The position numbers were made by a program, and so were the translations under genes. From contig JABAKD010000035.1 in the NCBI GenBank assembly GCA_012845835.1, forward strand, positions 454,246 to 518,245: a DNA stretch of 64,000 nucleotides, in the 5' to 3' direction. The first letter of the stretch is position 1. The number at the start of each line of letters is the position of its first letter. Of this stretch, positions 3,728 to 64,000 are shown one piece after another. The notes under the pieces are model-generated. The model made no database searches. It had not been told where the DNA came from and saw only the letters and a list, made by a program, of their open reading frames with translations. This stretch comes from Undaria pinnatifida (taxonomy: Eukaryota > Sar > Phaeophyceae > Laminariales > Alariaceae).

Positions 3728-4155
3728 CGTTCGTGATAGCGGCCGTGTGTATCGACTGAGTTGCGGTAGAACATCTGATGGGATGATTTGAATAGCGGAA
3801 CTGACGATCTGAGGTTGCCGAGCTAGCACATAGGAAAACTCCTTGTGGTGCTGCGGTAGTTCGGTAGATTGTACACACCTAAGGGTTATACATTGGACCG
3901 TAGGAGAATGTATGGTACATCGGACAATTGTCAGGTAGAATACCCCCGTATTGTTGCTAGAGGTCGGATTAACGGCTTATTGCCGTGATCGGTACGTTGC
4001 ATTGGTCCGATTGTGTGCATCTTTCCGAAGTGGCGTGGGAGTTCGCAGCCTTTGTGCTCGCCCCACTCGTTCACTCCACTTCCCAACCTGTCTCTCCAGA
4101 CCAAGGTCTCAATAATAAAATATCTCTTTCTTCAGAAGTCACGGATTAACCAACA
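3728..4155 (+). repeat. Left LTR of the copia fossil
   Basis: This is a 428-bp direct repeat paired with 5369-5796 at about 98% identity by eye. It is preceded by the target duplication AACAG and contains AATAAAATAT near its 3' end, which could serve as a poly(A)-signal region. Confidence 0.85.
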
Positions 4156-4234
4156 CGCTAAACCAATCCTCTTCAGGTCCGACACTAGCCTCTTGTAGAA
4201 TGTTCTAGATGCCTGCTTCAATCCGCACAAACTC

Positions 4235-5173
4235 TTGTGTAAACGGGCAACCTTTCCTGACGTCGAGCAGTCTATGTCTGACCCCTGTGTCCTGCGTTTC
4301 ATGATGGGGTATGAGGTTGTGGGGATGGTCGCGATTCACGTGGATATTCTGTATGCAGGAACTAGGAGTCTGGCTAAGGTGGTTGTGGAAGCACTTGGTG
4401 ACTCTCTTCCTACGAAGAATTTGGGTGAGGTCAAGTTCTTTCTTGGTTGCGAATTTATTCGCGACCGCGAGGCTGGCACGATTGAGATTTCCCAAGAGAG
4501 TTACATAAAGAGTTCTCGCGAGAGATTCCATATTTGTCGCACCAGCTCGATCCCTGCTTCCCTTGCCAACGATAACACGTCCTTGAAGGAGGATGAGGGG
4601 GCAGGAGATGTGCCGTTCCGAGAGGTGGTGCGGAGCCTGATGTGGATCGCCAGCCAGACGAGGCCCGACATCTCGAATGCTGTGCGGGCTGTGGCGAGGC
4701 ACTCTCACGAGCCAAAGAGAAGCCACTGGAAGGCAGCCCAGAAGATCCTGAATTATCTTCTGGAAACGGCGCATCTAACTCTGAAGTTCAAGCAAGACAG
4801 TTCGGTAGACGTAGGCACGTTGGTGTACGCAGATGCCGACCTTGCAAGCAAGGCCACTGACCGTAGATCAGTTTCGGGAGCGATGGTGTTTGTGGCTGCG
4901 ATGCTTGTAGTTTGGATTTCTAGGACGCAGAAATGCGTTTCACAGTCGACTTCTGAAGCAGAGAACCTTGCGATGGGCGATGGTGTGAAGGAGGCTCTGT
5001 TGGTGAACGGAATGCTTCAGTTCCTGAGGCTTAGTAGGAAGCCTCGTAAGATCGACGCCCTTGAGGACAACGAAGAAGCGATTGCGCTTGCAGAGAATCC
5101 ACTTAGCTCGAGTAGGAGTAAGCACATCGACGTGAGGCACCCCTTTCTTAGGAATTTTACCGAGGAGATATGA
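4235..5173 (+). pseudogene. Ty1/copia reverse transcriptase end plus RNase H relic
   Basis: The recognisable family words are FFLGCEF (copia RT 'FLG'), the segment ending 'SLMWIASQTRPDIS' (copia 'YL..TRPDI'), VYADADLASKATDRRSVSGA (RNase H 'DAD.A......R.S.SG') and 'SQSTSEAE' followed by the SSSRSKHIDVR box. The order RT end, then RNase H, is the normal C-terminal order of copia pol. It lies between the paired LTRs on the same strand. It is a partial polyprotein and therefore a fossil; no function is claimed. Confidence 0.88.
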
Positions 5174-5368
5174 TCGAGGTCACGCATGTTCCCAGCGAAA
5201 AACAGCATGCGGACATCGCCACGAGCGCTCTCCCAAGCGATCTTTTTGAAGTTCACCGCGACTTTGCGCTTGGCTCGAGGGATGAGAACTAGAAGTCTGA
5301 GGGATATTTTTTTCATTTTCTTTAATATTTTTTTTTGGTCTGGTAGATACAACAGCCCCTAGGGAGGG

Positions 5369-5796
5369 TGTTCGTGATAGCGGCCGTGTGTATCGACTGA
5401 GTTGCGGTAGAACATCTGATGGGATGATTTGAATAGCGGAACTGACGATCTGAGGTTGCCGAGCTAGCACATAGGAATACTTCTCGTGGTGCTGCGGTAA
5501 TTCGGTAGATTGTACACACCTAAGGGTTATACATTGGACCGTAGGAGAATGTATGGTACATCGGACAATTGTCAGGTAGAATACCCCCGTATTGTTGCTA
5601 GAGGTCGGATTAACGGCTTATTGCCGTGATCGGTACGTTGCATTAGTCCGATTGTGTGCATCTTTCCGAAGTGGCGTGGGAGTTCGCAGCCTTTGTGCTC
5701 GCCCCACTCGTTCACTCCACTTCCCAACCTGTCTCTCCAGACCAAGGTCTCAATAATAAAATATCTCTTTCTCCAGAAGTCACGGGTTTACCAACA
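5369..5796 (+). repeat. Right LTR of the copia fossil
   Basis: It begins TGTTCGTGATAGC right after the purine tract AGGGAGGG at 5361-5368, ends CCAACA, and is followed by the AACAG target duplication. It pairs with 3728-4155. Confidence 0.87.
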
Positions 5797-7585: not shown

Positions 7586-7801
7586 TATTTAGAGCATACC
7601 ACATGTACCTTTCGTTGTAGTACAACACAATACGGAAACAAAAAATCACTAAGGTTAACGTAAAAACACCACGTAAAAAAAAAGTGCTCCCATCCACCTC
7701 ACAGTTTACCTTTGAAATATTCGGCATCTGCATTTAGCGCGCAGGTAGAAAATTATGCTCGCATCCACCTCCGTTTCCTCCCGCCCCCACCACATACACC
7801 C

Positions 7802-8400
7802 CCTTAAACATATATATATAATAGTTGGCCTCAGTTGACACCGACGCTGTAAAACATTATATGTATATTGGGGCTGCCGTTGGTTGGCAACGACGCTGTA
7901 AAACATGCCAATCACTGCTTGAGCTAGACAAACAGGGTACCGTTTTTTCTTTTTTTTTCTTTAGGCGGTCACCACGATGGTTATCGACTTAGATCATATT
8001 GTGCGGGGTGGGGGACCCTAACTCCGCACAAGGGGACTAATCGCATCACGTAGTGTGAATATGGTAAGGCACCCACGAGGCAGTTACAGAGTGATACCCA
8101 TTGCTGTCTCTGGAGTGGCCACACCAGAAAATAAAGTAACTCATTGGCGCTGTCATCCATGAGCAAGAAAGTAGGCACAAGGTGCCGAAGTCCGTCTTAC
8201 GAGCGGTTCTTGGAAGGATGCAGTTCACCCTTCATGCGACTCGCCGAACACCTCACGGCGCTTCGCGATTGGTGCAAGCAATGTCTGCCTGGTTGCTGAA
8301 AACCCGACGTGCCTCATCCCGGCATAGTGGGGATGCGAGGGTCTATGGTCAAACGACTACGGCCATGCACAAACTGAGTACACCCCCCCCCCCCTCCCCC
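7802..8400 (+). mobile_element. C-run chain, non-autonomous element R, copy 1
   Basis: This ~590-bp unit recurs at 8641-9230 and 11883-12468. It opens after a C-run with TTAAA, then GTTGGCCTCAGTTGACACCG, and contains an internal near-duplication ending CGACGCTGTAAAACAT. Its 3' end is GAGTAC followed by a long C-run. The last ~75 bp resemble the 3' end of the LINE at 9231-11882 (GTCTATGGTCAAACGACTACGG versus GTCAATGGTCAAATGACTAAGG). Such sharing of a 3' tail is the classic sign of a non-autonomous element mobilised by a LINE. A short ORF ending ARVYG(Q/H)TTTAM is kept in all three copies and may descend from the LINE C-terminus. Confidence 0.7.
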
Positions 8401-8640
8401 ACCACACACACCCTTCCCCCGCCGCCCCACCAAAAATCAAAATCCGCCAGAACAATAAACACTACCCGGCAGGTGATATCACCTCTTTCGAACCATCCAT
8501 GCAGTAGCTCCAACTTCAAATTAACCTCCACGCGCCCCCCCTTCTCCTCCACCCCCACCAACGCCTAGACCTAACACCACGCGTACAGGAAACTCCTCTA
8601 CATTTATGCGACCTAAAATTGTTGAAAATCTCCCCCCCCC
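8401..8640 (-). repeat. G-rich dispersed repeat, inverted copy
   Basis: Read on the minus strand, this contains TACGCGTGGTGTTAGGTCTA, GAGCTACTGCATGGATGG, GATATC and TAGTGTTTATTGTTCTGGCG. These are the same words, in the same strand order, as the G-rich repeats at 55990-56760. It separates R copies 1 and 2 and ends in a C10 run from which copy 2 starts. Confidence 0.6.
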
Positions 8641-9230
8641 TTAAAATACAGATACGATGGTTGGCCTCGGTTGGCACCAACGCTGTAAAACATTATACGT
8701 ATATTGGGGTTGGTATTGGTTGGCAACGACGCTGTGAAACATGCCAATCACTGCGTGAGCTAGACAACCAGGGTACCGTATATTTTTTCTTTATTTCTTT
8801 TGGCGGTCACCACGATGGTTATCGAGTTAGATCATATTGTGCGGAGTGGGGAACCCTAACTCCGCACAAGGGGAATAATCGCATCACGTAGTGTGAATAT
8901 GGCAAGGCACCCACGAGGCAGCTACGTAGTAATACCCATTGCTCTCTCTGAAGTGGCCACATCAGAAACAAAGTATAACCGATTGGCGCTGTAATTCATA
9001 AGCAAGAAAGTAGGCACAAGGTGTCGCAATCCGTCTTACGAGCGGTTCTTGGAAGGATGCAGTTCACCCTTCATGCGACTCGCCGAACACCTGACGGCGC
9101 TTCGCGATTGGTGCAAGCAATGTCTGCCTGGTTGCTGAAAACCCGACGTGCTCCGTCCCGGCAGAGTAGGAATGCGAGGGTCTATGGTCACACGACTACG
9201 GCCATGCACAAACTCAGTACCCCCCCCCCC
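8641..9230 (+). mobile_element. C-run chain, non-autonomous element R, copy 2
   Basis: This matches R copy 1 almost throughout, from TTAAAATACAG and GTTGGCCTCGGTTGGCACCA to the terminal CAGTAC plus C10. The conserved stretch SVLRAVLGRMQFTLHATRR is present. The LINE at 9231 starts immediately after its C-run, so the two are joined head to tail. Confidence 0.7.
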
Positions 9231-11334
9231 TTCACTTAGTGGTTCAGACGGGTTACAGAGGGAGTTAGTTCACAAGAAAACAAGTAAAGAAGTGTGTAGC
9301 TGAACTTAAGAATAGAAAGGCAGCAGGGGCAGATGAAATAATGAACGAATTTATGACATACGGAGGAGAAGGTATGCTTACCATGATGGTTATGTTGTAT
9401 AACTGGATATGGAAAAACGAGTGCGCGCCTAAGAGGTGGAGAGAAGTAGTAGTAAACATATCCAAGAAAGATAAGGCTGACCCGGGGAACTGCCGAGGGA
9501 TCACGCTATTAAGCGCCGTAGGAAAAACATTCTGTGAGATTTTGAACGATAGAATGGGAACAATGTTGGAGAAGGACGAAAAAATAAGGGAAGGGCCAGC
9601 AGAATGTGGGTCAAACCTTAGTTGCGTAGACCTTGTGTACACATTAGGTCAGATAATTCAAGGCAGGAAAGACGCCGGGCTAACGACGTACTGTTTCTTC
9701 CTAGATGTACAGAAGGCCTATGACACAGTATGAAGGAATGGGTTGTGGAAAAAATATGTGGGAAATTGGGATCAGAGGAAAGAGGTGGAGAATGATGAAA
9801 AATATGACGGAATGTGCGACAAGTGCTGTGATGTTGGACGGGGAAATATCCAAATACACTGGTATTTCACAAGGAGTTGCACAGGGATGTACACTATTAC
9901 CCCATCCATTCAAGATATATATTCATGACATGATAGAAGCAGTCGAAGCAGCAAAGCAAGGAGTCACGATGGGGGAAGATACGGTGTCGGGGTTGATGTT
10001 TGCGGATGATTTCGTGGGGATATCAGAAACACCCGAAGGATTGCAGAAAAAGATAGAGAAAACATTAGAGTACACTATGAAATAGAGGGTGACAGCGAAC
10101 GGGAAAACATGCGCAGTAGTTATAAGTAACGAAGATAAGGTGAATCCGGTAAATTTCAAATGGAAGAGGGGCGAAGATGAACTACTGATTGTAGACCAAT
10201 GTACGTATCTTGGCGTTGAGATCTCAAAGGACTGCTTTTGGGATGGACACATAGCGAAAGTAATAGGAAAGGGTGAATCACAAGTAGGCAAGATGGATGC
10301 GATCGTAACAGACCCGCATCTTGAAACTAGGACTAAATATGCATTCGGATGAATGTGAATGCACCAAAGTTAGAGTATGCAGGAGAGGTATGGGAAGGGA
10401 ACGCAAATTCGTAAAACAACTGAAAACAGTGAGGATTACAGAAGGTAAAAATATACTGGGATGCTCAAGTACGACGAGCAATACAGACGAGCAGAACTAG
10501 GAATGTACCCACTTGAAACAAACAGATGTGAGTTGAAAGTGCGATATAACGTGAAGAATATGCCAGAATAGAGGTTGCCAGCCATAGTTGATAATGCTGT
10601 GCGGGGGAAATTAACAAAAGGGCGAGCTGGAATAAGATGGGATAACGTAGTCGAGAAAAAATTGAAGGACATAGAGGGAGATCAAGAAAAGGTATTGTCT
10701 ACAGAGAAGCTTGGCGGGTACGAGACAGAAGTAAAGAAGGAATAGAAAAAAGGGAAAGGCAAGCGCCAAGAAGTAAGGTGAAAGAGGAGAAACACATAGA
10801 GAAATACGGGGGTTTGAGGGAAGATATTGGAACGAAACGTATCTGCACGGCCCATTGGACTACGCGAAAAGCTGAAACTGCGATTTCGTGTAGGGGACCT
10901 GGACCTACCACAAAGAACGAATAGATATACCAGTAGTAGGTAGGAGAACGTGGCTACAAATATGCGCCCGTGTGGCACAACAACAGAATGTAGGATTCAC
11001 ATTGGAGGAGAATAAAAAATATGCAAGGAGGAACGGGATGCGTTAGAGATGAGGAGCTTAGACGTATGTGACATGGAAGAGTTTGATAGGCTAGAGAGTA
11101 GCGAGAACACGATCGTATGTCCTAGGAGGTAGATGGTGGCCGCAGACGGCGAAACAGGACGGGAATAAGTTAAGCAAACAGTTTCTATGTAGTATATGGA
11201 AGACGCGTAATGTGCGCCCAAAATGTAGGAAGTGTCTCTATTAGGAGTAGGAACGGTGCTCGTCTCGAAACGGATGCGTGGTCAATGGTAAAATGACTAA
11301 GGCAAGCAACAAATGAGTACGCCCCTCCCCCCCC
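9231..11334 (+). mobile_element. LINE retrotransposon, 5'-truncated copy a
   Basis: A non-LTR reverse transcriptase is recognisable. KNRKAAGADEIMNEF lies near 9310, DPGNCRGITLLSAVGKTF (RT motif 2) at about 9480-9535, FLDVQKAYDTV (first catalytic Asp) at about 9700-9733, ISQGVAQGCTLLP at about 9865-9900, and the catalytic box FADD at 9999-10010. The reading changes frame once between 9705 and 9733, and an in-frame TAG falls at about 10086; more breaks follow in the C-terminal half (10350-11240). The 3' end is AATGAGTAC with a C-run. The 5' part (endonuclease, start) is absent, so this is a dead 5'-truncated copy. It abuts R copy 2 on the left and a second truncated copy on the right. Confidence 0.85.
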
Positions 11335-11882
11335 TTAACCTAAAGATATACGGGGGTTTGAGGGAAGATATTGATGGAAACGTATCTGCACGGCCCATTG
11401 GACTACGCGAAAAAGCTGAAACTACGATTTCGTGTAGAGGACCTGGACCTACCAGAAAGAAGAAAGAGATATACTAATAGTCGCGAAGAGGAGGACGTGA
11501 CTACAAACATGTGCCCGTGTGGCACAACAGAGGGTAGGACGCACATAGTAGGAGAGTGTGAATTATACAAGGAGGGACGGGATGCGTTAGAGGGGATGAG
11601 GAAATTAGGTGTACGTGACAAGGAAGATCTTGGTAGACTAGAGAGTAGCGAGAAGACTATCGCTATCGTAGAAGATAGATGGTGGCCGCAGACGCCGAAA
11701 CAGGACGGGGATAGGATAAACAAACAGTTTCTACCGGTATGTAGTATATGGAAGAAGCGTAATGTGCCTAAATGTTGGAGGTGTCTCTATCAGGAATAGG
11801 AACGGTGCTCCGTCTCGAAAGGGACGCGTGGTCAATGGTCAAATGACTAAGGCAAGCAACAAATGAGTACGACCCCCCCCCC
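11335..11882 (+). mobile_element. LINE retrotransposon, heavily 5'-truncated copy b
   Basis: This repeats the last ~540 bp of copy a. Both contain ATACGGGGGTTTGAGGGAAG and end with AAATGAGTACG plus a C-run. A 142-residue frame at 11371-11799 keeps the LINE C-terminal domain, including a zinc-knuckle-like C48-x-C50...H58...C63 cluster (CPCGTTEGRTHIVGEC) and RWWPQTPKQDGD. It starts directly after the C-run of copy a. This looks like a second insertion into that C-run rather than a duplication of the locus, though a tandem duplication is not excluded. Confidence 0.82.
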
Positions 11883-12468
11883 TAAAATATACATCATAGT
11901 TGGCCTCGGTTGGCACCGACGCTGTAAAACATTATATAAACATTGGGGTTGGCGTTGGTTGGCAAATACGCTGTAAAACATGCCAATCACTGCGTGAGTT
12001 ATTGTATTGACAACCAGGGTATCGTTTTTTTTTTTAATTCTTGTGTCACCATGATGTTATCGTGTTAGATCATATTGTGCGGGGTGCAGAACCCTAACTC
12101 CGCACAGGGGGAATGATAGCATCACATAGTGTGAACATGGTAAGGCACCCACGAGGCAGTTACATTGTAATACCCATTGCTGTCTCTGGAGTGGCCACAC
12201 CAGAAAACAAAGCAACTCATTGATCGCTGTCATCCATAAGCAAGAACGTAAGCACAAGGTGCCGAAGTCCGTCTTACGAGCGGTTCGCGGAAATATACAG
12301 TTCATCCTTCATGCGACTCGCCGGACACCTCACGGCGCTTTGCGCTTGGTGCAAGCAATGACTGCATGGTCGCTGAAAACCCGACGTGCTCCGTCCCGGC
12401 GTAGTAGGGATGCGAGGGTCTATGGTCATACGACTACGGCCATGAACAAATTGAGTACACCCCTCCCC
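11883..12468 (+). mobile_element. C-run chain, non-autonomous element R, copy 3
   Basis: The sequence runs from TAAAATATACATCATAGTTG to TTGAGTACACCCCTCCCC, matching R copies 1 and 2 with more divergence. The frame RTPHGALRLVQAMTAW and ARVYGHTTTAM is conserved. It begins right after the C-run of LINE copy b and is the last member of the chain. Confidence 0.7.
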
Positions 12469-13715
12469 ATTTTTAACCACCCGGCCCCGGCCCCCCCACC
12501 GTAAAAAACACGTCCCCCTCTCCTCACCGGTGATACGACTACAGGATATACATAGTAAACTGATGCATTCCACAGCCGCCAGATTTTGTTCCCCTCAAAA
12601 ACGATTTTTATAGCTTCCGAGCACAGATTGATTAACATCGCCCTGTTGATCCTGATACAAGCTAGTTCTAAGGCGAGTCGCTGATCTATGTCCTTAATGA
12701 GGACACACACCCAGCAATCCGCGCGATCGGAGTATCACAGTATCACACGCAGCCTGCAAAAATGAGTTTTCACGACATCTACGATCTCACAGCTGACGTG
12801 TTTTTTTACTTTTTTATAAAATATATAGAATCACCTCGGGTAGCCCCAGCCTCGATCTAAATACCCACCCTGATTTTCCCCTGGGCAGGGGCGGCGGCTG
12901 AGAGAGCATGTCATTAATCGTACCCCTTGGCTTGCACCATTCAGAGTGGTTAGGAGACGACTTTCGCCAATGGCGACAGCATAGAGGCCGACGTACACGC
13001 GGCGGTAACGCAACAAGGAAGAACAGAGCAGTATAGGCTAACCCTACGACGAATACTATTACTCTGTAATGCAACAAGCTGTACTCCAATAAAACCAAGA
13101 AGTACTAACAGCGGTTTACGTGGTATGTTGGTATCTGGTATGGCACATGCGGTGATGTAAAAGAAAGGGGTTTGATTGTTTTCACAATAACTCGCATAAT
13201 CAAGTCCGTGGTCACACGACAGGCTTCAGTCAATCTAGAGTGGAAGAATACCCAAGGGGAAAAGAAAAACTAACCGAACGTGGTACGCGTATATATCATA
13301 GCTGAATCAAGTCGTACAACTACCAAAATATACAAACGTGAAATGCGAGGTCAGCGTACGTACGTATCAGGCCCATACAGGTACAGACGTAGATTCGAAG
13401 CTGAAACCGACTACACCGCATGTCACCAAGGAAACCAAAATAATGTACAAACCGAAATGGCTACTCGTACTCGTGCTCGTACGGCTATGCTGGTAGAGCA
13501 TGCCAACACGACAGCACTTGTGATCTTTCAATTCCACCACATCGCGATAGCAGGAGCAGCAGTATTATTTCAAAAAAAGAAAATACCAACGAGAGAATGA
13601 AAACGTAGCAAAGAGATAATACGTACGCAATAAGTTACCTAGACTTGGCAGCAGTGTAGCGAGGTAAGGCAGATTACTTGTATCAGCGAGCAAGGCCAGC
13701 AGTAGTACCGTGGTA
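12469..13715. other. Gene-free stretch
   Basis: No supported gene is present. The sequence contains a SINE-like CTCACAGCTGACGTG core at 12786-12803 followed by T-rich DNA. Several ORFs of 80-106 codons occur on both strands, without motifs, low-bias composition or splice context. Confidence 0.3.
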
Positions 13716-13806
13716 GATTTTTTTTTTTTCTTCATCCTCCGGCGGATGGGGAAAAAAAAAGCTTTCGCTCACCACACTTCCACGTATTTTCATACGCGTC
13801 GTGTGT
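13716..13806 (-). repeat. T-run / A-run hairpin repeat, copy 1
   Basis: A T13 tract, then TCATCCTCCGGCGGATGGGG, then an A9 tract can fold on the CCGG centre. The following ~50 bp (CACCACACTTCCACGTATTT, then TCATACGCGTCGTGTGTCG) are an inverted copy of 30008-30095. The same T-run/GGAGGAT/A-run plan appears a third time near 28207-28258. Confidence 0.5.
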
Positions 13807-13916
13807 CGATTTAACTCGTGGTAGATCTTCTGCAGCTGTCGTACAAAGCTGGTTGCATTCATCTGTTTGTACTCCTGTTGTACAGGTGCTGCCGTATGTA
13901 CTGACTGATTGCTGGA

Positions 13917-14794: not shown

Positions 14795-15350
14795 TCAGCT
14801 AGCCCTCCGGAATGCTGTATGCGAGCGCGTAAACTGATCGGACAACGGTAGGGCGTCTGCCTCTATGAACGCCGTTTCGCGAGAACGCTTCGCACCTACC
14901 GCCGCCGCGGATGCTGTTGCCACTACGTATCTGCGTGCGACGGAGGCGGACTTCCACCCTACGTACTTCATAAGAGCGTCCATGGCCGTGCCGTCCATGT
15001 GGTGACTCGCCGCCCCTCCCACTCGAAAGGAGTGCATCGTGTACCGCTTATCCGCCATGCCTGCCGCCCGCAAATGCGTCTGGAGGCCGGTGGTCATTTG
15101 CACTGCTGTCAGGGCCCCGTCCCCTTTCCCCCGCCCTCTAGAACGCTCGGGAACAGGAATCCTGACCCCTCGGCGAGTGACCACTGCATGGATTCCGCTG
15201 CCTGTTGGTACTCCACCATGGCTGTGACCGCGCAGATTTCGCGGCAGTCTAGGTTCTTCTTTACCACGACTGCTTGGGAGGAATTTCGGAACGTCTTTCC
15301 GGCAGGGATGCCCTTCATGCGTCCCCAAATTTGGTTCTGACAATTACTCC
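14795..15350 (-). pseudogene. Tyrosine recombinase (phage-integrase fold) fossil
   Basis: On the minus strand the C-terminal catalytic region is clear. MHSFRVGGAASHH supplies the H-x-x-R box near 15034, MKYVGWKSASVARRYV holds the GW motif and the candidate nucleophile Tyr near 14929, and further upstream is LTAVQMTTGLQTHLRAAGM. Upstream stretches of the same family (NQIWGRMKGIP, LDCREICAVTAMVEYQQAAE) are recognisable. Recombinases of this type occur in DIRS-like retroelements and in Crypton DNA transposons, and are numerous in brown-algal and other protist genomes as I know them. The superfamily cannot be settled here. The copy is partial and broken and is treated as a fossil. Confidence 0.75.
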
Positions 15351-15429: not shown

Positions 15430-17320
15430 ATCCTCACAACGGCCGTTAGCACCATCACTTGGAGATGAATTGACAGTGGATGAAATGACTAGTAACACGG
15501 GGTATGCCAAACTAGAAAGCAGTGGGACCAGACTCCTTGCCGTCCGAGCTGTTGAAATTGACCGCCCCGAATTTATCCGCTACTTCCACAACCTACTTAT
15601 CAATGGGTGGAGAACGGGAGACGTCCCCCACAGTGGAAACGTGCAACCATTAAGGTCCTTCATGAAAATAAGGATCGCTCAGATCGCAACAGCTACCAAG
15701 GGATCTCGCCCGTTGCCCATTCAGGCAAAGTACTGTTAAAAAAGGTTGCGTCCCGCCTCATCAACTACGGTGAGACCGAAGGGATACTCCCCGAAGAACA
15801 GCGCGGCTTTCGCCCCGCGCGATGAACAGTGGGCATGCTGTTCGTCCTGAGCTGACTGTAAGGACTCGGGCGAGCTAAAAGAACCCTCTGTAAGTGTGAT
15901 TAATCGACCTCCAGAAAGCATACGACTTCGTCGACCGAAAGCTGCTGTGGGTGGTGCCCGCACGCTTCGGGGCACCAGAGAAGATGCTGACTAGTATCCG
16001 CCAGTTCCATCAAGGCATGCGATCTCGCGTGCGTACGGATGACGGTGAGCAATCTGAATGGTTTGACGTCACTCAGGAACTGCGGCAAGGATGTGTATTA
16101 TCGCCATCTATTTTCAATGTGTTCTTCGTCGCTGCGATACATGCTGTTCTGGTACGCGAGGACCCAGACATTTCGAGGGACTTGGTTCACCTCGAGGAGG
16201 ACCTCGGCGGCGACGGGGCGGAGGTTGAACCACTAGCATGTGTGCGGAGGTCAGTCTAGGGTATGCTGTACGCCGACAATGCAGGCATTGTGTCCAAGGC
16301 GGCGGAAGGCCTTGCGAAGATGATGACCGTCATTGTGACCATTTTCGAATCAGCAGGACTCACCGTGTCCAAAAAGGAAACGGAGACAATGCTTCTGCGC
16401 ACACTCAATCAGGTTCTCCCGATCTCACCGCTCGTCGTAGAAGCAGCGGGCCAGAGGTATATGCAGATGGTGCAGTTGCTGTACCTGGGCGATCTTACCG
16501 ACGCAAGCGCCGACATTATGCCAGAGAATAAACCGACGGATCCGACTCGCGTGGGCATGCTCCGATCGTTTCAGGCGCGAGCTGTACGATATGGAGGATG
16601 CCCCGTACACATCAAAGTTGCGCCTGCTAATGACCGAGGCGATGGAGGCCCTGCTGTACGGGTGTGTGACTTGGACTCTCGGCCAGGAGCACTTCGCTGA
16701 GCTCCGAACGGTGCACCACAACCTCCTCCTCAGGATCATTGGCTTTCAGCGCCGACAACGCACCGACCACCGCATGTCGTACGCCAAGGCTCTCAAGAGG
16801 GCACAATTTGAGAGCGTTGAGACGACTATCCGCAAACGACGCGTCCTGTTTGCGGGAGCCGTACAACGGACGACCAACGAGTGGCTGACCCATCACGTGA
16901 TGTTCGGGACGATGGCTGGTAGGGTGAACCCGGGACAAGGCCGACCAGAAAAGAACTGGGCTCAGTGTCTAGCAGACGACATCCAGGTATTCAAAGCCAC
17001 TGAGGGTTCACGGATAGCCCCCCTTCGCTGTTCGGAGTAGAGACTGTGCTATGGCCGAGGGCGGCTAAGAAAAGTGGGAACTGGCACCGGGGGATCGTCG
17101 GCGCGGCGGATCGCTTCATGATGAGATGGCACCGGGGCGAGGGGAAGAGCTGGTTACGCCTCACGGCAAAGGACGCAAAGAGCAGCAACAAAGGGAAACC
17201 GGGGGCACGCGGGGGGGAGCAGCCGTACTGATACAGCTGTAGATGAACGCAGAAACAAAATGGTCGATCATGTGGCAAGATACCAGTTCGACAAAGATTT
17301 GGAACGTGCTCTACTATAGC
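15430..17320 (+). mobile_element. Second LINE-like retrotransposon, badly decayed
   Basis: Non-LTR reverse-transcriptase landmarks appear in order across all three frames: [20 protein letters not shown] at 15620-15700, [20 protein letters not shown] then GFRPAR (15745-15825), [15 protein letters not shown] near 15905, [19 protein letters not shown] near 16070-16130, and a catalytic box reading YADN instead of YADD at 16269-16280. The C-terminal part continues to about 17320 with HHNLLLRIIGFQRR (about 16715-16760), RKRRVLFAGAVQR and a HVARY tail. At least five frame changes or stops break it. It differs from the LINE at 9231-11882. The family looks like one that is abundant in stramenopiles; this is from memory, not a search. 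Confidence 0.82.
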
Positions 17321-19003: not shown

Positions 19004-19620
19004 TTGTCTTTTCTCGTACGAGCTGGATTGGCCAATACGGAATATACATGGTGGAACGGGTTTTCCGACCCGGTTTTTACGAGTTTTATCCTGAAATTTC
19101 AACAGGGCATTGCTTACAGTATTTCTAATAGAATAACGACTGCGGTTTTTCTTTTTCTTTTTTTTTTCCTTGAGTTAAACATATATTACTGAATTAGAGA
19201 ATATTTGTTTTGCGATGAAATGGTGTAAAAAAAGTAAAATAAAATAAAAAACCGCAATCGTGATTCTATTTAAAATACCAATAGCAATCACGTGTCAAAA
19301 AATCAGGTTGGAATTCGTAAAACCGCGCCGGAAATTGAAAATGCTGTTTCGACCCCAGGAACATGGGTGACGTAGGATATCACCCCCCCTTGGGCTATTA
19401 TAAAACTTAGACATCTGTCGATCAAGAACAGTGCCAAAAGTCACAAGGGTGGAATTGAAGCAATCCCGAATATATTTATCGAAAATCGGGTTGTGTGGTG
19501 AGCCCAGACTGTATTCGTTACAGCAGTATCATACACGTGCCCGAAAATTTTCTGATGCACACAGGACACACAACGATTTGTACACCCCCCCCCCACACAC
19601 ACCCGGCCTGCCGGCCCACG
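19004..19620. other. Gene-free stretch
   Basis: AT-rich sequence without a supported gene. A C10 run follows TTTGTACA at 19577-19594. The ORFs are short or low-complexity. Confidence 0.3.
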
Positions 19621-27054: not shown

Positions 27055-27109
27055 CAGGGCTTTTCACGGGTCATGACCCGACCCGGGTCGGGTCAAGGGG
27101 GTTTCAAAA

Positions 27110-27300
27110 TTTCGCGGGTCGGGTCGGGTCGGGTCGGGTCATTACGTTTTAAAATCTCACGGGTCGGGTCGGGTCGGGTCAAGAGGTTTTCAAAATCTCG
27201 CGGGTCGGGTCGGGTCGGGTCAAAAGGCTTCAAAATCTCGCGGGTCGGGTCGGGTCGGGTCAAGAGGTTTTCAAAATCTCGCGGGTCGGGTCGGGTCATG
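27110..27300. repeat. Left CGGGT minisatellite array
   Basis: Blocks of (CGGGT)3-4 recur at 27121, 27161, 27202, 27242 and 27283 (period 40-41 bp), separated by spacers such as CAAGAGGTTTTCAAAATCTC. It is a subterminal array of the hAT-like element. Confidence 0.9.
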
Positions 27301-27713
27301 ACCCGCAAGATACGGGTCACTTCGCGGGTCAAGCCATAATGACCCGTGAGTTGTTTTGGGCTGACCCGCGGGTCAAACCCGCGGATCTAGCCGGCGGATC
27401 CGCCTTTTTCAAACTTACAGCTGAGAGCCACGTTGATGCCGTGCAGGCGCCCCGCGGGTCGGGCCCGCGGGTTCGCCAAAAAAAACAAACATTTCGGCTT
27501 CCTGCCTCCCTCGTGCCGATGCTCCGATCATATGTCATCACAGCGTGCAGAACAATCACCAGGCAGTACCCCTAGCTAATCGTACCAAGGCATACAGCAG
27601 TGTGACGCGAATCCCGTACCTACTGAAGCCGTAACAACAGCAGTAATATTACGGTCATACCAGTACGAAATGTGACCAAACGGAAAAAAGGCAATTAAGG
27701 GCAGTCGTCGTCG

Positions 27714-27718
<5 letters not shown>

Positions 27719-27748
<30 letters not shown>

Positions 27749-27757
27749 CTGGCAGCA
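27719..27757. repeat. (CAG)n microsatellite
   Basis: About ten CAG/CTG units with a few interruptions lie in the centre of the CGGGT element. Confidence 0.9.
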
Positions 27758-28359
27758 GCAAGCACCAGTAGCAGACAATGCATCCTCGCGGATCGCAGCC
27801 CCTGCTGACAGATCCACCGCCCCAGTTGTGGGCTTGCTGCCGGAGGCGGCTCAGCTAGGCTGCTTGCCGGGGCCGGAGATTGCACTTGTAACTTATAACT
27901 AGCTCGCTCGTCGGGTCGCTCGTCGGGTCGACCCGGTGGTCAAACGGTACGGGCATATCCATGCATGTGGGTTGCGGTTTGTTTCCTATTTCTCGCGCGC
28001 ACACCACATGACAAAATCATCAGCAGCAAACAATGCCGGTAAAAAACGCAGAGAACACGACGTACTGGGAAAAGTACGAGGGACCAAGGACCAACCAACC
28101 GACCGAGGTATACATGCTTTGACCCGTGATCTGCGTTCTGCAGATGGAGTCTGCGTTCTGCAGATGGACGAAAACTGGTACACAAACGAAAGTGTATGGA
28201 GCTTAAGCTTTTTTTACCCGGGTCTCCAGGAGGATAAAAAAAAAAAAAAAAAAAAAAAATTGACCCGTGAATTTTTGACTTTGACCCGTGAGAAATGTCA
28301 CGGGTCAAGTTAACGTGACCCGCCAGACGACCCGAATCTCGCGGGTCACCCGGATTGTC

Positions 28360-28560
28360 GCGGGTCGGGTCGGGTCGGGTCAGGACGATTTCAAAATCTC
28401 GCGGGTCGGGTCGGGTCGGGTCAAGACGTCTCGAAAATCTCGCGGGTCGGGTCGGGTCGGGTCAAGACGTCTCGAAAATCTCGCGGGTAGGGTCGGGTCG
28501 GGTCAAGACATCTCGAAAATCTCGCGGGTCGGGTCGGGTCAGCTGACCCGACCCGACCCG
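28360..28560. repeat. Right CGGGT minisatellite array
   Basis: Blocks at 28361, 28402, 28443, 28484 and 28525 share the 41-bp unit, with spacer CAAGACGTCTCGAAAATCTC. The array ends by switching to the inverted form (GACCC)n at 28545-28570. A 23-bp poly(A) tract lies about 100 bp upstream at 28236-28259. Confidence 0.9.
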
Positions 28561-29947: not shown

Positions 29948-30010
29948 CAGTGGGATTCGAAGGGTGCGCCAGCTAGCGTTGGGTTGCGAAACCAACTGAG
30001 TTAGTTCGAC
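29948..30010 (-). repeat. tRNA-like sequence (SINE head or tRNA pseudogene)
   Basis: On the minus strand, CTAACTCAGTTGGTT (29990-30004) is a good Pol III A box. CCTTCGAATCCC (29952-29963) is a good B box with tRNA-like spacing. The anticodon and T stems do not pair well, so a functional tRNA is unlikely. The T-run/A-run hairpin repeat follows directly on its 5' side. Confidence 0.45.
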
Positions 30011-30095
30011 ACACGACGCCTATGAAAATACGTGGAAGTGTGGTGAGATTGAGCTTTTTTTTTTCCCATCCGCCGGAGGATAAAAAAAAAAAATA
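30008..30095 (+). repeat. T-run / A-run hairpin repeat, copy 2
   Basis: CGACACACGACGCCTATGAA, a related 25 bp, then a T-run, CCCATCCGCCGGAGGAT and an A-run. It is an inverted match to 13716-13806. Confidence 0.5.
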
Positions 30096-55160: not shown

Positions 55161-55600
55161 TCTATAAGACTCTATCCACTAGACCACAGTCACTGCTGTT
55201 ACGTTGTGGTCTAGTGGATAGACTGTTCGCTGCTGAGGCCGGTGTGCGTGGGTTCGAATCCCCGGGTCATCGCGTGGGTTCCAATCTCGGTGTCATCGAT
55301 ACAAAAAGAAGAGATACTAGAAAAAAAAAGCATCGATAGTATTATACTCATAAAATAAGGAAAGTAAGAAGCGCTGAGCGCTGAGAAGAACACCCGTCAC
55401 TGCTGTGACTTTGTGGTCTATCTAGGAGATATCCGCTCGTGAGCCTGGTGGTCTTCGTTGGTTCGAATCCGGGTGTCATCGTGAAAAAATATATTATAAA
55501 ATTAAAATACACTCCAGCTGTGAAATCGAATATTTTGTCGAAACTCATCTTTGCAAGCTGTGAGTGATACTCCGATCGCGCGCATTACGGGTTGTGTGTC
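55161..55600 (+). repeat. Tandem tRNA-like SINE heads with shared body
   Basis: Unit 1 carries an A box TGGTCTAGTGGATAG (55207-55221), with a perfect 4-bp D stem, and a B box GGGTTCGAATCC (55250-55261). Unit 2 repeats the plan at 55413 and 55458-55470. The body after unit 2, AAAATACACTCCAGCTGTGA, recurs at 56306 (CTCCAGCTATGAGATC). A mirrored A-box segment at 55172-55187 forms an exact 16-bp inverted pair with 55206-55221. Anticodon and T stems do not close, so these are SINE heads, not tRNAs. Confidence 0.6.
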
Positions 55601-55989
55601 CTCATTTAAGGATATAGGTCGGCGACTCCCCTTGCAACTACAGTGTAGCTATCAGGGTCAACAGGGTGATGTTAGGCAGTCTGTGCGCAGAAACTATAAA
55701 ACCCGTTTCTGAGGGGGACAAAATCTGACAGCTGTGGAAGGAAATGCATCAGTTTATCAAGTGAATCCTGTAAGTCGAATATCCGGTAAGGGGAGGGCGG
55801 AGTTTTTAAGGACGTGGGGGCCTGATTTTGATCAAAAGGGGGGCGGGAGGGGGGGAGGGGGGGGAGGGCGGGGAGGGGACGGGTGGGGTAGGTCAATTTG
55901 TGCGTGAAACCATAAATATTTCATGTGGGGGAGGGGGGGGGGGATGTGGCGGGGGGGCGGGGGGCGAGGGGGAAGGGCTTTAGGTCGCG
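55601..55989. other. Gene-free, G-rich toward its end
   Basis: Increasingly purine/G-rich sequence leading into the G-rich repeats. No gene. Confidence 0.3.
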
Positions 55990-56760
55990 TAGATGTAGGG
56001 GTTTGCTATACGCGTGGTGCTAGGTCTAGGCGATGGTGCGGGTGGTGGGGAAGGAGGGGGCGTTGAGGGCGGGGGTGGGTGGGAATTGCAGCAGCGGCAT
56101 GGACGGCTCTAAAACGATAACGAGGCGATATCCAGGGCGTGGAAGTGTTTACTACTCTGGCGGATTTCGACATTAGGTGGGGCGTTCAAGCAAGAGAAAG
56201 CGAGGGGAAAAAAAAAAAAAGGGGGGGGGGCGGGGGGGGGGGGGGGGGGGGGGGGGGAGGAGGGGGAGGTTTTCAAGAGGTTTAGGTCACATACTTCGAA
56301 GTATAATATTAAAATACACTCCAGCTATGAGATCAAGGATTTGGTCGACACTGATGTTCGCAACATTGTGTGTGATCCTCCGATCGCGTGTATTAATCAT
56401 ATATGTAGGGGCTTGCTATACGCGCGGTGCTGGGTCTAGGCGATCGTGCGGATGGCGGGAAAGGAGGGGGCGTTGGCGGGGGGGAGGGGGATGAATGAAA
56501 GCTACGTCATGGATGGCTAGAAAGAAAATGACGTGATATCAATTGCTTAGAAGTGTTTATTACTCTGGCCGATTTCGATTGTAAGTGGGACGTTTGAACG
56601 AACTGGGCGGGGAACAAGAGGGGGGGGGGGGGGGGGGGGGGGCGGAGATGAGTTGGAGCTACGGCATGGATGGCTAGATGGATAATGAGATGATATCGGC
56701 TGGTAGTGTTTACTACTCTGGCAGATTTTGATTTCAGGTGGGCAACAAACATCGGTATAA
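55990..56760 (+). repeat. G-rich dispersed repeat array
   Basis: A ~415-bp unit is repeated: TTGCTATACGCG(T/C)GGTGCT at about 55998 and 56413, each followed by GGCGTT(G)...GGGG and a GCATGGA(C/T)GGCT block (56097, 56509, 56667). Each block is then followed by GATATC and GTGTTTA(C/T)TACTCTGGC. G-runs of 20-40 bases lie between. The same words occur inverted at 8401-8640. Confidence 0.65.
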
Positions 56761-60395: not shown

Positions 60396-60579
60396 TGTAC
60401 GTTGGCATAGATAAACAAACACCGTTGTTATCTTTCACACATACTACATCAAGTTATACCCTATATTTTACGTAACATTGAAGCACCATACGTTCATAGA
60501 TACTTCGTATATTGATGAATATCCAATATTTGTCATCCAGAAAAGACAATAATCCACCAATATTCTGAATTTACCATTA
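60396..60579. repeat. Flank segment F, first copy
   Basis: GTACGTTGGCATAGATAAAC to TGAATTTACCATTA. It recurs inside 61392-61620 and 63134-63362 almost unchanged and ends at the TTA target of the MITE. Confidence 0.85.
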
Positions 60580-61391
60580 GGGCCCGAATTAACGAGGAAC
60601 TTGCAAAATCGAATTTCGATTTTTTTTTATACAATTTAATTTAATTTGCATCTGATTGGTCAAGAAATGAATCACCAAGCAGGCATTCTCAGAATTATTA
60701 CGAAAAATCAAATTCAACAAAGCAGTAAAAAAAGACTTTCTTGGTCGAATTTAGTCGAAAATCGAAATTGAATTTAGGGAGTTTGTCCACTTAGACATGG
60801 CTTGTTCTGTGTAACCGAAGCCGGCCACGCGAATTGGTGCCATGTCGTCGGCTGATTGAGAGGCGACAAGCCAACATTGCGAGAGGTAGGACCACCGGAG
60901 CAGCCGCAGCGCGGCCTCCAAAGGTCCTTAGCACAGCGTAGACCGCCTGCGACGCTTCGAAAGCAACCGAGACCGCCGCAAACCCAGTTTTTCGTCGCCC
61001 TGCACCTCGAAAGTTACACGACCAACTACCACATGATGAATTCGCTCAGAAGTTCTACCGCTATATCCCCGTCGCTGCTGCCCGTGTCGGGCGGCGGGGT
61101 GGCGCCAGCCCATCCAAGAGACACCTAGAGCCATAGCCTCCAAGCCGCTGCCGGCCAAAAGAATCTGCGGCTAGCCGCGGCGCTCCGGGGAGGACGCGAG
61201 CCATCGCTCGCCTCGGTCGTTGCCCACGGGTGTTCGTTGACCCTTTTGCGTTTTTTGAATTTTTATATTTCCTAGAACGCACTGCGCCGTTCCTTGATAA
61301 GAACCAAAGTTGAATTTTTCGTGTATTTTCCATGAAATTAAAAAAAAAAAAACGAAATTCGATTTTGCAAGTTCCTCGTTAATTCGGGCCC
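60580..61391. mobile_element. Tourist-like (PIF/Harbinger-type) MITE A, copy 1
   Basis: An 812-bp element with a perfect terminal inverted repeat of ~39 bp (GGGCCCGAATTAACGAGGAA...), flanked on both sides by TTA. A 3-bp TWA duplication and a GGG-type terminus are the PIF/Harbinger signature. The ~90-codon ORFs inside are repeated in each copy but have no transposase motif. It lies in an intron of the gene at 58092, after the donor at 60341. Confidence 0.85.
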
Positions 61392-61620
61392 TTACACACG
61401 ATTTTGCTCTGTGATTTTTTTTACAACCAACCCTATTGTACGTTGGCATAGATAAACAAACACCGTTGTTATCTTTCACACATACTACATCAAGTTATAC
61501 CCTATATTTTACGTAACATTGAAGCACCATACGTTCATAGATACTTCGTATATTGATGAATATCCAATATGTGTCATCCAGAAAAGACAAAAATCCACCA
61601 ATATTCTGAATTTACCATTA
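61392..61620. repeat. Flank segment F, second copy
   Basis: TTACACACGATTTTGCTCTG, then the same ~184 bp as 60396-60579, ending ACCATTA. F plus MITE A make a 1041-bp tandem unit. Confidence 0.88.
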
Positions 61621-62318
61621 GACCTACTATTATGGCGAATATTTTCATCGATTATTTCTCTCTTTAACCGGGATCTCCGATGACAAAAATAAAAACCTTC
61701 CACTATGGGACCAGAAGTCATCGTTATTTCTGGGTTCAGAAATAATCGAGGCCAGAAATCAGCGGATCTGGTGATTTCTGAGCCCAGAAATAACAGCTCT
61801 TCCAACCTCTCAGAACTGGGATTATTTGACTTTTGGATACTACCTCGTACTAAGTATCACATGTCACCACTGCTTATACTGTACCTGGTATGATACTTGT
61901 CTGCTGTACACGTCACGCATCACCCACAACAAAGAATCACAAACACACCTACGACAGCATACTGCGCTTGTTGTGTGCGAGACAGAGCTTCATCCTCACA
62001 CAAACGCGACAGCAGCAGCACCACCACCATCGAAACCACCACAGGCACACCACACCAGCACCACAGCAGCAGCGCAGCAGAAGAGACCGCAGCAGAGGCA
62101 GTGGTGACCTAACGTCGCCGGCGACAGTGTACGTGCCAGATTTCAAAAATAAAGGCAAACGGCAAAACAAGACCTACCAATTCAAAATAAAACCACTTTC
62201 CAAAAATCAGAAGCCATAATGGACGCTCCTTATTTCTGATGCAGTTATTTCTGGAGCCTCAAAACTACAAAAATAATCGCCAGAAATAATCGCTCAAAAT
62301 TTTCCATAATAGTAGGTC
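61621..62318. mobile_element. Second inverted-repeat element B, TTATTTCTGG arrays
   Basis: The ends GACCTACTATTATGG and (inverted) GACCTACTATTATGG match for 15 bp, then imperfectly (GCGAATATTTTCATCGATTA versus AAAATTTTGAGCGATTA). TTA flanks both sides (61618-61620 and 62319-62321). TTATTTCT(G)/CAGAAATAA words occur about ten times inside in both orientations. It has inserted at, or been copied into, the TTA at the junction of the tandem units. It is non-coding; the ORFs at 61890-62219 are His/Gln/Thr-rich translations of CAG/CAC repeats. Confidence 0.8.
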
Positions 62319-62321
62319 TTA

Positions 62322-63133
62322 GGGCCCGAATTAACGAGGAACTTGCAAAATCGAATTTCGATTTTTTTTTATACAATTTAATTTAATTTGCATCTGATTG
62401 GTCAAGAAATGAATCACCAAGCAGGCATTCTCAGAATTATTACGAAAAATCAAATTCAACAAAGCAGTAAAAAAAGACTTTCTTGGTCGAATTTAGTCGA
62501 AAATCGAAATTGAATTTAGGGAGTTTGTCCACTTAGACATGGCTTGTTCTGTGTAACCGAAGCCGGCCACGCGAATTGGTGCCATGTCGTCGGCTGATTG
62601 AGAGACGACAAGCCAACATTGCGAGAGGTAGGACCACCGGAGCAGCCGCAGCGCGGCCTCCAAAGGTCCTTAGCACAGCGTAGACCGCCTGCGACGCTTC
62701 GAAAGCAACCGAGACCGCCGCAAACCCAGTTTTTCGTCGCCCTGCACCTCGAAAGTTACACGACCAACTACCACATGATGAATTCGCTCAGAAGTTCTAC
62801 CGCTATATCCCCGTCGCTGCTGCCCGTGTCGGGCGGCGGGGTGGCGCCAGCCCATCCAAGAGACACCTAGAGCCATAGCCTCCAAGCCGCTGCCGGCCAA
62901 AAGAATCTGCGGCTAGCCGCGGCGCTCCGGGGAGGACGCGAGCCATCGCTCGCCTCGGTCGTTGCCCACGGGTGTTCGTTGACCCTTTTGCGTTTTTTGA
63001 ATTTTTATATTTCCTAGAACGCACTGCGCCGTTCCTTGATAAGAACCAAAGTTGAATTTTTCGTGAATTTTCCATGAAATTAAAAAAAAAAAAACGAAAT
63101 TCGATTTTGCAAGTTCCTCGTTAATTCGGGCCC
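62322..63133. mobile_element. Tourist-like MITE A, copy 2
   Basis: Nearly identical to copy 1, the same 812 bp, TTA on both sides. One visible difference is GAGACGACAAG versus GAGGCGACAAG near 62602. Confidence 0.88.
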
Positions 63134-63362
63134 TTACACACGATTTTGCTCTGTGATTTTTTTTACAACCAACCCTATTGTACGTTGGCATAGATAAACA
63201 AACACCGTTGTTATCTTTCACACATACTACATCAAGTTATACCCTATATTTTACGTAACATTGAAGCACCATACGTTCATAGATACTTCGTATATTGATG
63301 AATATCCAATATTTGTCATCCAGAAAAGACAATAATCCACCAATATTCTGAATTTACCATTA
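63134..63362. repeat. Flank segment F, third copy
   Basis: Same as 61392-61620. It places MITE copy 3 exactly 1041 bp after copy 2. Confidence 0.88.
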
Positions 63363-64000
63363 GGGCCCGAATCAACGAGGAACTTGCAAAATCGAATTTC
63401 GATTTTTTTTAATACAATTTTATTTAATTTGCATCTGATTGGTCAAGAAATGAATCACCAAGCAGGCATTCTCAGAATTATTACGAAAAATCAAATTCAA
63501 CAAAGCAGTAAAAAAAGACTTTCTTGGTCGAATTTAGTCGAAAATCGAAATTGAATTTAGGGAGTTTGTCCACTTAGACATGGCTTGTTCTGTGTAACCG
63601 AAGCCGGCCACGCGAATTGGTGCCATGTCGTCGGCTGATTGAGAGGCGACAAGCCAACATTGCGAGAGGTAGGACCACCGGAGCAGCCGCAGCGCGGCCT
63701 CCAAAGGTCCTTAGCACAGCGTAGACCGCCTGCGACGCTTCGAAAGCAACCGAGACCGCCGCAAACCCAGTTTTTCGTCGCCCTGCACCTCGAAAGTTAC
63801 ACGACCAACTACCACATGATGAATTCGCTCAGAAGTTCTACCGCTATATCCCCGTCGCTGCTGCCCGTGTCGGGCGGCGGGGTGGCGCCAGCCCATCCAA
63901 GAGACACCTAGAGCCATAGCCTCCGAGCCGCTGCCGGCCAAAAGAATCTGCGGCTAGCCGCGGCGCTCCGGGGAGGACGCGAGCCCAGTGTTGTTCCATT
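63363..64000. mobile_element. Tourist-like MITE A, copy 3 (runs off the window, diverges near its end)
   Basis: Starts GGGCCCGAATCAACGAGGAA and follows copies 1 and 2 up to GACGCGAGCC at 63985. The last 15 bases (CAGTGTTGTTCCATT) do not match the other copies (ATCGCTCGCCTCGGT). Either another insertion, a truncation or an assembly join begins here. Confidence 0.8.

Follow-up and report, generated by a model that had tools for sequence, protein, structure and literature searches.

In a 64,000-nucleotide stretch of the brown alga Undaria pinnatifida (GenBank assembly GCA_012845835.1, contig JABAKD010000035.1, forward-strand positions 454,246 to 518,245; the whole stretch is referred to as the window, and positions are counted from its first letter), we found a chain of five retroelement copies associated with tracts of C. 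Three are copies of an element of about 580 bp, named R, that resembles a short interspersed nuclear element (SINE), and two are 3' pieces of a long interspersed nuclear element (LINE), named L1 and L2. By blastn, all five have the same orientation, as had been originally predicted. Around and between them lies a C-rich repeat, X, a second copy of which is present further along the window. The features are as follows.

7780 to 7801, plus strand: left copy of the 22-bp target-site duplication of R1 (20 of 22 positions identical to 8392 to 8413)
7802 to 8382, plus strand: R1, SINE-like, full length (blastn to R2 and R3; the leading CC may be extra)
8383 to 8391, plus strand: nine Cs of the R1 tail outside the duplication, between GTACA and its right copy
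8392 to 8413, plus strand: right copy of the R1 target-site duplication (20 of 22 identical to the left copy)
8395 to 8631, plus strand: spacer between R1 and R2, in which 8423 to 8617 is a piece of repeat X (72% identical to 56184 to 55979 on the minus strand)
8632 to 8640, plus strand: nine Cs before R2, reading TCT|CCCCCCCCC, taken from their position in X as the X tract where the composite R2-L1-L2-R3 landed
8641 to 9219, plus strand: R2, SINE-like, with the C-run after it reaching 9230 (blastn, 5'-end comparison)
9231 to 11322, plus strand: L1, a LINE piece that is truncated at its 5' end and encodes a broken reverse transcriptase (FADD box; RVT_1 and PDB matches; GTAC at 11317), followed by C4TC8
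11314 to 11316 (L1) and 11864 to 11866 (L2), plus strand: TGA of TGAGTAC that ends the presumed LINE frame (...VVNGKMTKASNK)
11335 to 11872, plus strand: L2, the same LINE as L1 (84% identical), more strongly 5'-truncated, followed by C10
11883 to 12459, plus strand: R3, SINE-like, followed by C4TC4 to 12468 (blastn, 5'-end comparison)
12469 to 12824, plus strand: right part of the invaded X (12489 to 12824 aligned, 76% identical to 55822 to 55489 on the minus strand)
55489 to 56184, minus strand: second copy of X, with C-runs of its own and no R or LINE match by blastn, used as a stand-in for the empty site

When compared with the whole window by blastn (E up to 1e-3), the five elements matched only among themselves. 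The R copies, 577-581 bp as delimited, are 85-90% identical in pairs (88-91% of aligned bases in global alignments) and look full length, since their 5' starts differ by no more than a few bases. L1 and L2 are 84% identical over 553 bp and start at different internal points, straight after C-runs, which is the 5' truncation known from LINEs. Directly 5' of R1, R2, L1, L2 and R3 we found C5, C9, C11, C8 and C10, and directly 3' of their terminal word C12, C11, C4TC8 (its first C being 11322 or 11323, depending on how GTACG is counted), C10 and C4TC4; three of these tracts are common to neighbouring elements, so that seven are distinct. On the plus strand of the window, five of the seven runs of at least eight Cs lie inside the 4.7-kb chain, and only 0.1% of window positions come directly after a run of at least five Cs. 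The original prediction had every element end in GTAC and 8-13 Cs and pass directly into the next. A C-tract does follow all five, but those after L1 and R3 are not plain runs, and the direct joint holds for three of the four, because 237 bp (8395-8631) separate the C-runs of R1 and R2. Similarly, the TTAA or TAAA expected at the joints is the 5' start of R itself, (T)TAAA in 3/3 copies, and L2 starts with TTAACC, but L1 starts with TTCACT. Elsewhere in the window, a C10 at 19585-19594 stands directly after TTTGTACA and resembles the GTACA and C tail of R; blastn found no R or LINE similarity upstream of it, and it may have arisen by chance or as the tail of some other, unrelated family.

The reverse transcriptase of L1 matched Pfam RVT_1 in two of three pieces (E 0.002 and 1e-5, both below the curated cut-off), and its best sequence match in the PDB was an R2 protein (2.6e-7; a namesake of our copy R2), with LINE-1 further down (1.8e-3). 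Among viral contigs, the same piece found two distant relatives at 29% identity, and three DNA patterns of the elements had no match there. In bacterial genomes, a lone 22-base match in a Filifactor metagenome-assembled genome was judged to be chance, since nothing else was better than E 0.17 and there was no tblastx match. By hand alignment, the last ~70 bp of R agree with L2 at 51/66 aligned bases in R1, 51/66 in R2 and 53/66 in R3. The likeness of the R tail to the LINE 3' end, proposed from the letters alone, was thereby confirmed, and a 3' end held in common with a partner LINE, a mark of SINEs, supports R as a non-autonomous partner. We call R SINE-like and do not class it as a SINE sensu stricto, because the exact consensus of the RNA polymerase III B box was absent from the plus strand of 3/3 copies; the A box gave a lone match in R3 and one relaxed match in R1. 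Rfam gave no match at its gathering threshold across the whole window nor at E 1 within 7700-12600, and no tRNA was found. One frame in both LINE copies reads VVNG(K/Q)MTKASNK and then stops at the TGA of TGAGTAC. With the frame ending there, the last ~70 bases of R would match the LINE coding end, and the LINE would have almost no 3' untranslated region, as judged from the two copies, both damaged and with a single base difference between them at this point. The protein end presumably resembles brown algal entries.

R1 inserted cleanly and is flanked by the 22-bp duplication expected of target-primed reverse transcription. The duplication scores 16, and no control equalled this, whether 1000 flank shuffles (maximum 12), 135 pieces taken from the C-rich DNA of X (maximum 9), 48 pieces from beyond the right end of the composite (maximum 7) or 2104 pieces of the window (maximum 12). 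Having a duplication of its own, R1 arrived alone, by target-primed reverse transcription, and since nine Cs separate GTACA from the right copy of the duplication, these Cs were brought by the element and not by the target. The duplication starts CCT|CCCG, which is GGG|AGG on the opposite strand, and this CT|CCC site is suggestive of a nick in the bottom strand at GGG|AG, with the Gs pairing with the C tail.

The DNA around the elements points to the surface on which they landed. Both the R1-R2 spacer and the DNA beyond the right end of R3 have matches, in the same order, in the second X copy on the opposite strand. As this copy has no R or LINE but many C-runs, the C-tracts belonged to X. R1 came in one arrival and the composite R2-L1-L2-R3 in another, both in the same direction. 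X is thus the older sequence, invaded by both. The region of the second copy (55489-56742, minus strand) also contains related units, with C-runs up to C26 and C23.

Taken together, we consider it probable that the chain was formed by a LINE and its SINE-like partner R, both served by one LINE reverse transcriptase and both inserted into C-tracts, with nesting. The reverse transcriptase would recognise the common 3' end (~70 nt, ending TGAGTAC) and the C-run, an endonuclease would nick a C-tract on its G-rich strand (perhaps at GGG|AG), and the Gs at the freed 3' end, paired with the RNA's C tail, would serve as the primer for reverse transcription. Such priming at C-tracts would leave insertions flanked by C and all pointing one way. 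R1 would have entered one C-rich tract of X, and the composite another, ~240 bp away. Within the composite, serial insertion into C-runs left by earlier insertions is the simplest reading and most likely the way in which it was built. The original prediction of priming in the C-runs of earlier copies is compatible with the three internal joints, but the first landings were in C-tracts of X. As to the nick, one site is defined by a duplication, that of R1; at R2 the tract reads TCT|CCCC, which is consistent with the same nick site, the duplication there not being defined. In mammals, the poly(A) tail of the L1 retrotransposon (a LINE distinct from our copy L1) pairs with Ts at a T-rich nick site. 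A C counterpart of that arrangement is part of a further-reaching possibility, which we put forward tentatively: the tail of the pair may be genuine poly(C) and its endonuclease may cut GGG|AG, each insertion leaving a C-run as a landing pad, so that chains would seed themselves.

Several observations weigh against the insertion of a LINE and R into C-tracts as we propose it. At the flanks of the composite only the Cs match (CCCCCCCCC versus CCCCTCCCC), with no duplication beyond them, and the invaded X lacks roughly 100 bp of the second copy at the joint, where the C-rich alignment is uncertain; either a deletion that accompanied insertion or drift of the C-rich DNA has accordingly to be allowed for. 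The TCT|CCC at R2 lends the nick motif little weight, because a C-run necessarily starts after a base other than C. The two independent landing sites come from a single window and lie in one C-rich repeat. No endonuclease domain was found in the L1 and L2 pieces, both of which are 5'-truncated. RTE insertions elsewhere are reported to lack sequence specificity and usually to make duplications of 6-12 bp (PMC2887409). Finally, we do not claim a common RNA fold of the tail, its support being no better than chance. Single folds gave a three-way junction with 97/104 standard pairs in a hand alignment fitted to the structure, compared with 26/99 to 42/94 when the alignment was slid by 1-3 columns; the folding energies of the five tails were shuffle-like (z -0.44 to 0.81), and RNAalifold found 0/15 pairs with both sides changed. 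In the hand alignment, R1 has A-U and L2 has G-C at one tail pair.

A different origin of the composite could be considered, in which it arose in one event, by priming in X followed by jumps of the reverse transcriptase from one RNA to the next C-tailed 3' end. The joints run tail straight into 5' start, as jumping would give, and no internal joint shows a duplication of its own. However, jumps usually start from full 5' ends, whereas L1 and L2 are 5'-truncated, and R1 shows that single insertions at C-tracts of X occurred anyway, so we regard this origin as unlikely. The placing of both landing sites in one C-rich repeat could also mean that C-rich DNA is merely permissive or prone to breakage, the elements having no preference and the Cs being an accident of X. 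Against this, five of five elements lie on the same strand, the C tail of R1 is outside its target, and the edges of the tracts fall exactly at the element ends, which makes an accident quite improbable. Several related copies lying head to tail might also suggest tandem duplication or unequal crossing-over, but R-L does not recur as a unit, L1 and L2 are truncated at separate positions, R1 is flanked by a duplication that belongs to it alone, and the spacer is absent between the other elements; we consider such an origin very improbable indeed. A preference for telomeres or subtelomeres, raised originally from telomere-like joints, seems to us hardly credible: one joint does read CCCTAAA (11880) and TTAGGG is reported as the telomere repeat of Ectocarpus (PMC11541908), but the TAAA there is the 5' end of R, CCCTAA/TTAGGG occurs 22 times in the window versus a mean of 24.8 (range 12-34, 50 resamplings) and never in tandem, and no insertion into a telomeric array of the kind made by TRAS-type LINEs was found.

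Insertion of a LINE and R into C-tracts has partial precedents. In Ectocarpus, RTEX-N1_Ec32 is a ~600-bp, non-autonomous element with a 3' end in common with RTE-X LINEs, for whose 5' part the authors report no origin and whose status as a SINE they left open (PMC12477816). Compared by description only, R is like RTEX-N1_Ec32 (partners RTEX-1 and RTEX-2_Ec32) in size and in its LINE-like 3' end; the available part of that description, however, mentions neither a C tail nor C-runs as targets, nor copies nested end to end. The borrowing of a LINE's 3' end by SINEs has been described before, in a source that names poly(A), TAA, TGTAA, (TTG)n and (TTGATG)n as LINE tails and, in the part available, no C tail (PMC3747384). 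In green algae, LINEs of the Zepp and Zepp-like type insert into copies already present and build nested arrays of 5'-truncated copies (PMC8226300, PMC3446292). R2-L1-L2-R3 is likewise a head-to-tail nest with truncated LINE copies, but the R copies look full length, and Zepp is described as L1-type with one cluster per chromosome, whereas here a LINE and a SINE-like element are mixed, with C-runs at the joints. In Lepidoptera, RTE elements have simple repeats inside their duplications, hence carried by the element, and in one case a 20-bp duplication; DONG targets (TAA)n and TRAS targets telomere repeats (PMC2887409). R1 shares with Lepidoptera RTE the simple-repeat tail between duplications, which consists of C and not of di- or trinucleotide repeats, and it landed in a C-tract, whereas the available account of those elements describes no sequence-specific target. 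As with DONG and TRAS, the landing was in a pre-existing simple repeat, here a C-tract and not telomere repeats. Among the matches listed in the open-licence literature, no paper dealt with poly(C)-tailed LINEs, and two papers mentioning a poly-C tail concerned transposon sequencing (Tn-Seq) and yeast telomeres. The nest itself is real and of a known kind; what is unusual is the C tail together with the C-tract site.

The window holds further repeats and reading frames. Direct repeats of 427 bp at 3729-4155 and 5370-5796 are 98% identical, and an open reading frame between them has a weak Copia-type reverse transcriptase match (RVT_2, E 0.00087, below the cut-off); 3729-5796 looks like a short long-terminal-repeat retrotransposon. 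At 60396-63659 there are interleaved direct repeats with 1041- and 1742-bp spacing, up to 100% identity and inverted arms of 50-55 nt, and at 27061-28559 arrays of the unit GGGTCGGGTC with periods of ~41 nt and inverted arms on both sides. A 96-nt inverted repeat pair (13722-13817 and 29998-30093, 90% complementary) lies 16 kb apart. An open reading frame at 14795-15343 (minus strand) has a weak tyrosine-recombinase match (PF00589, E 0.0086, below the cut-off), and another at 16441-17040 has no Pfam match; by eye, we take it to resemble the C-terminal part of a different LINE. At the curated cut-off, Pfam gave no match for sets of 9 and 10 window proteins.

If C-tract insertion does not hold, the chain would be a local nest of ordinary elements inside a C-rich repeat. 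If it holds genome-wide, an abundant pair of retrotransposons would rely on C, both in the tail and at the target, in place of the A or short repeats that serve other elements. It would then offer a natural test of the pairing between tail and nick site during priming, and it would explain C-jointed repeat nests in its host.

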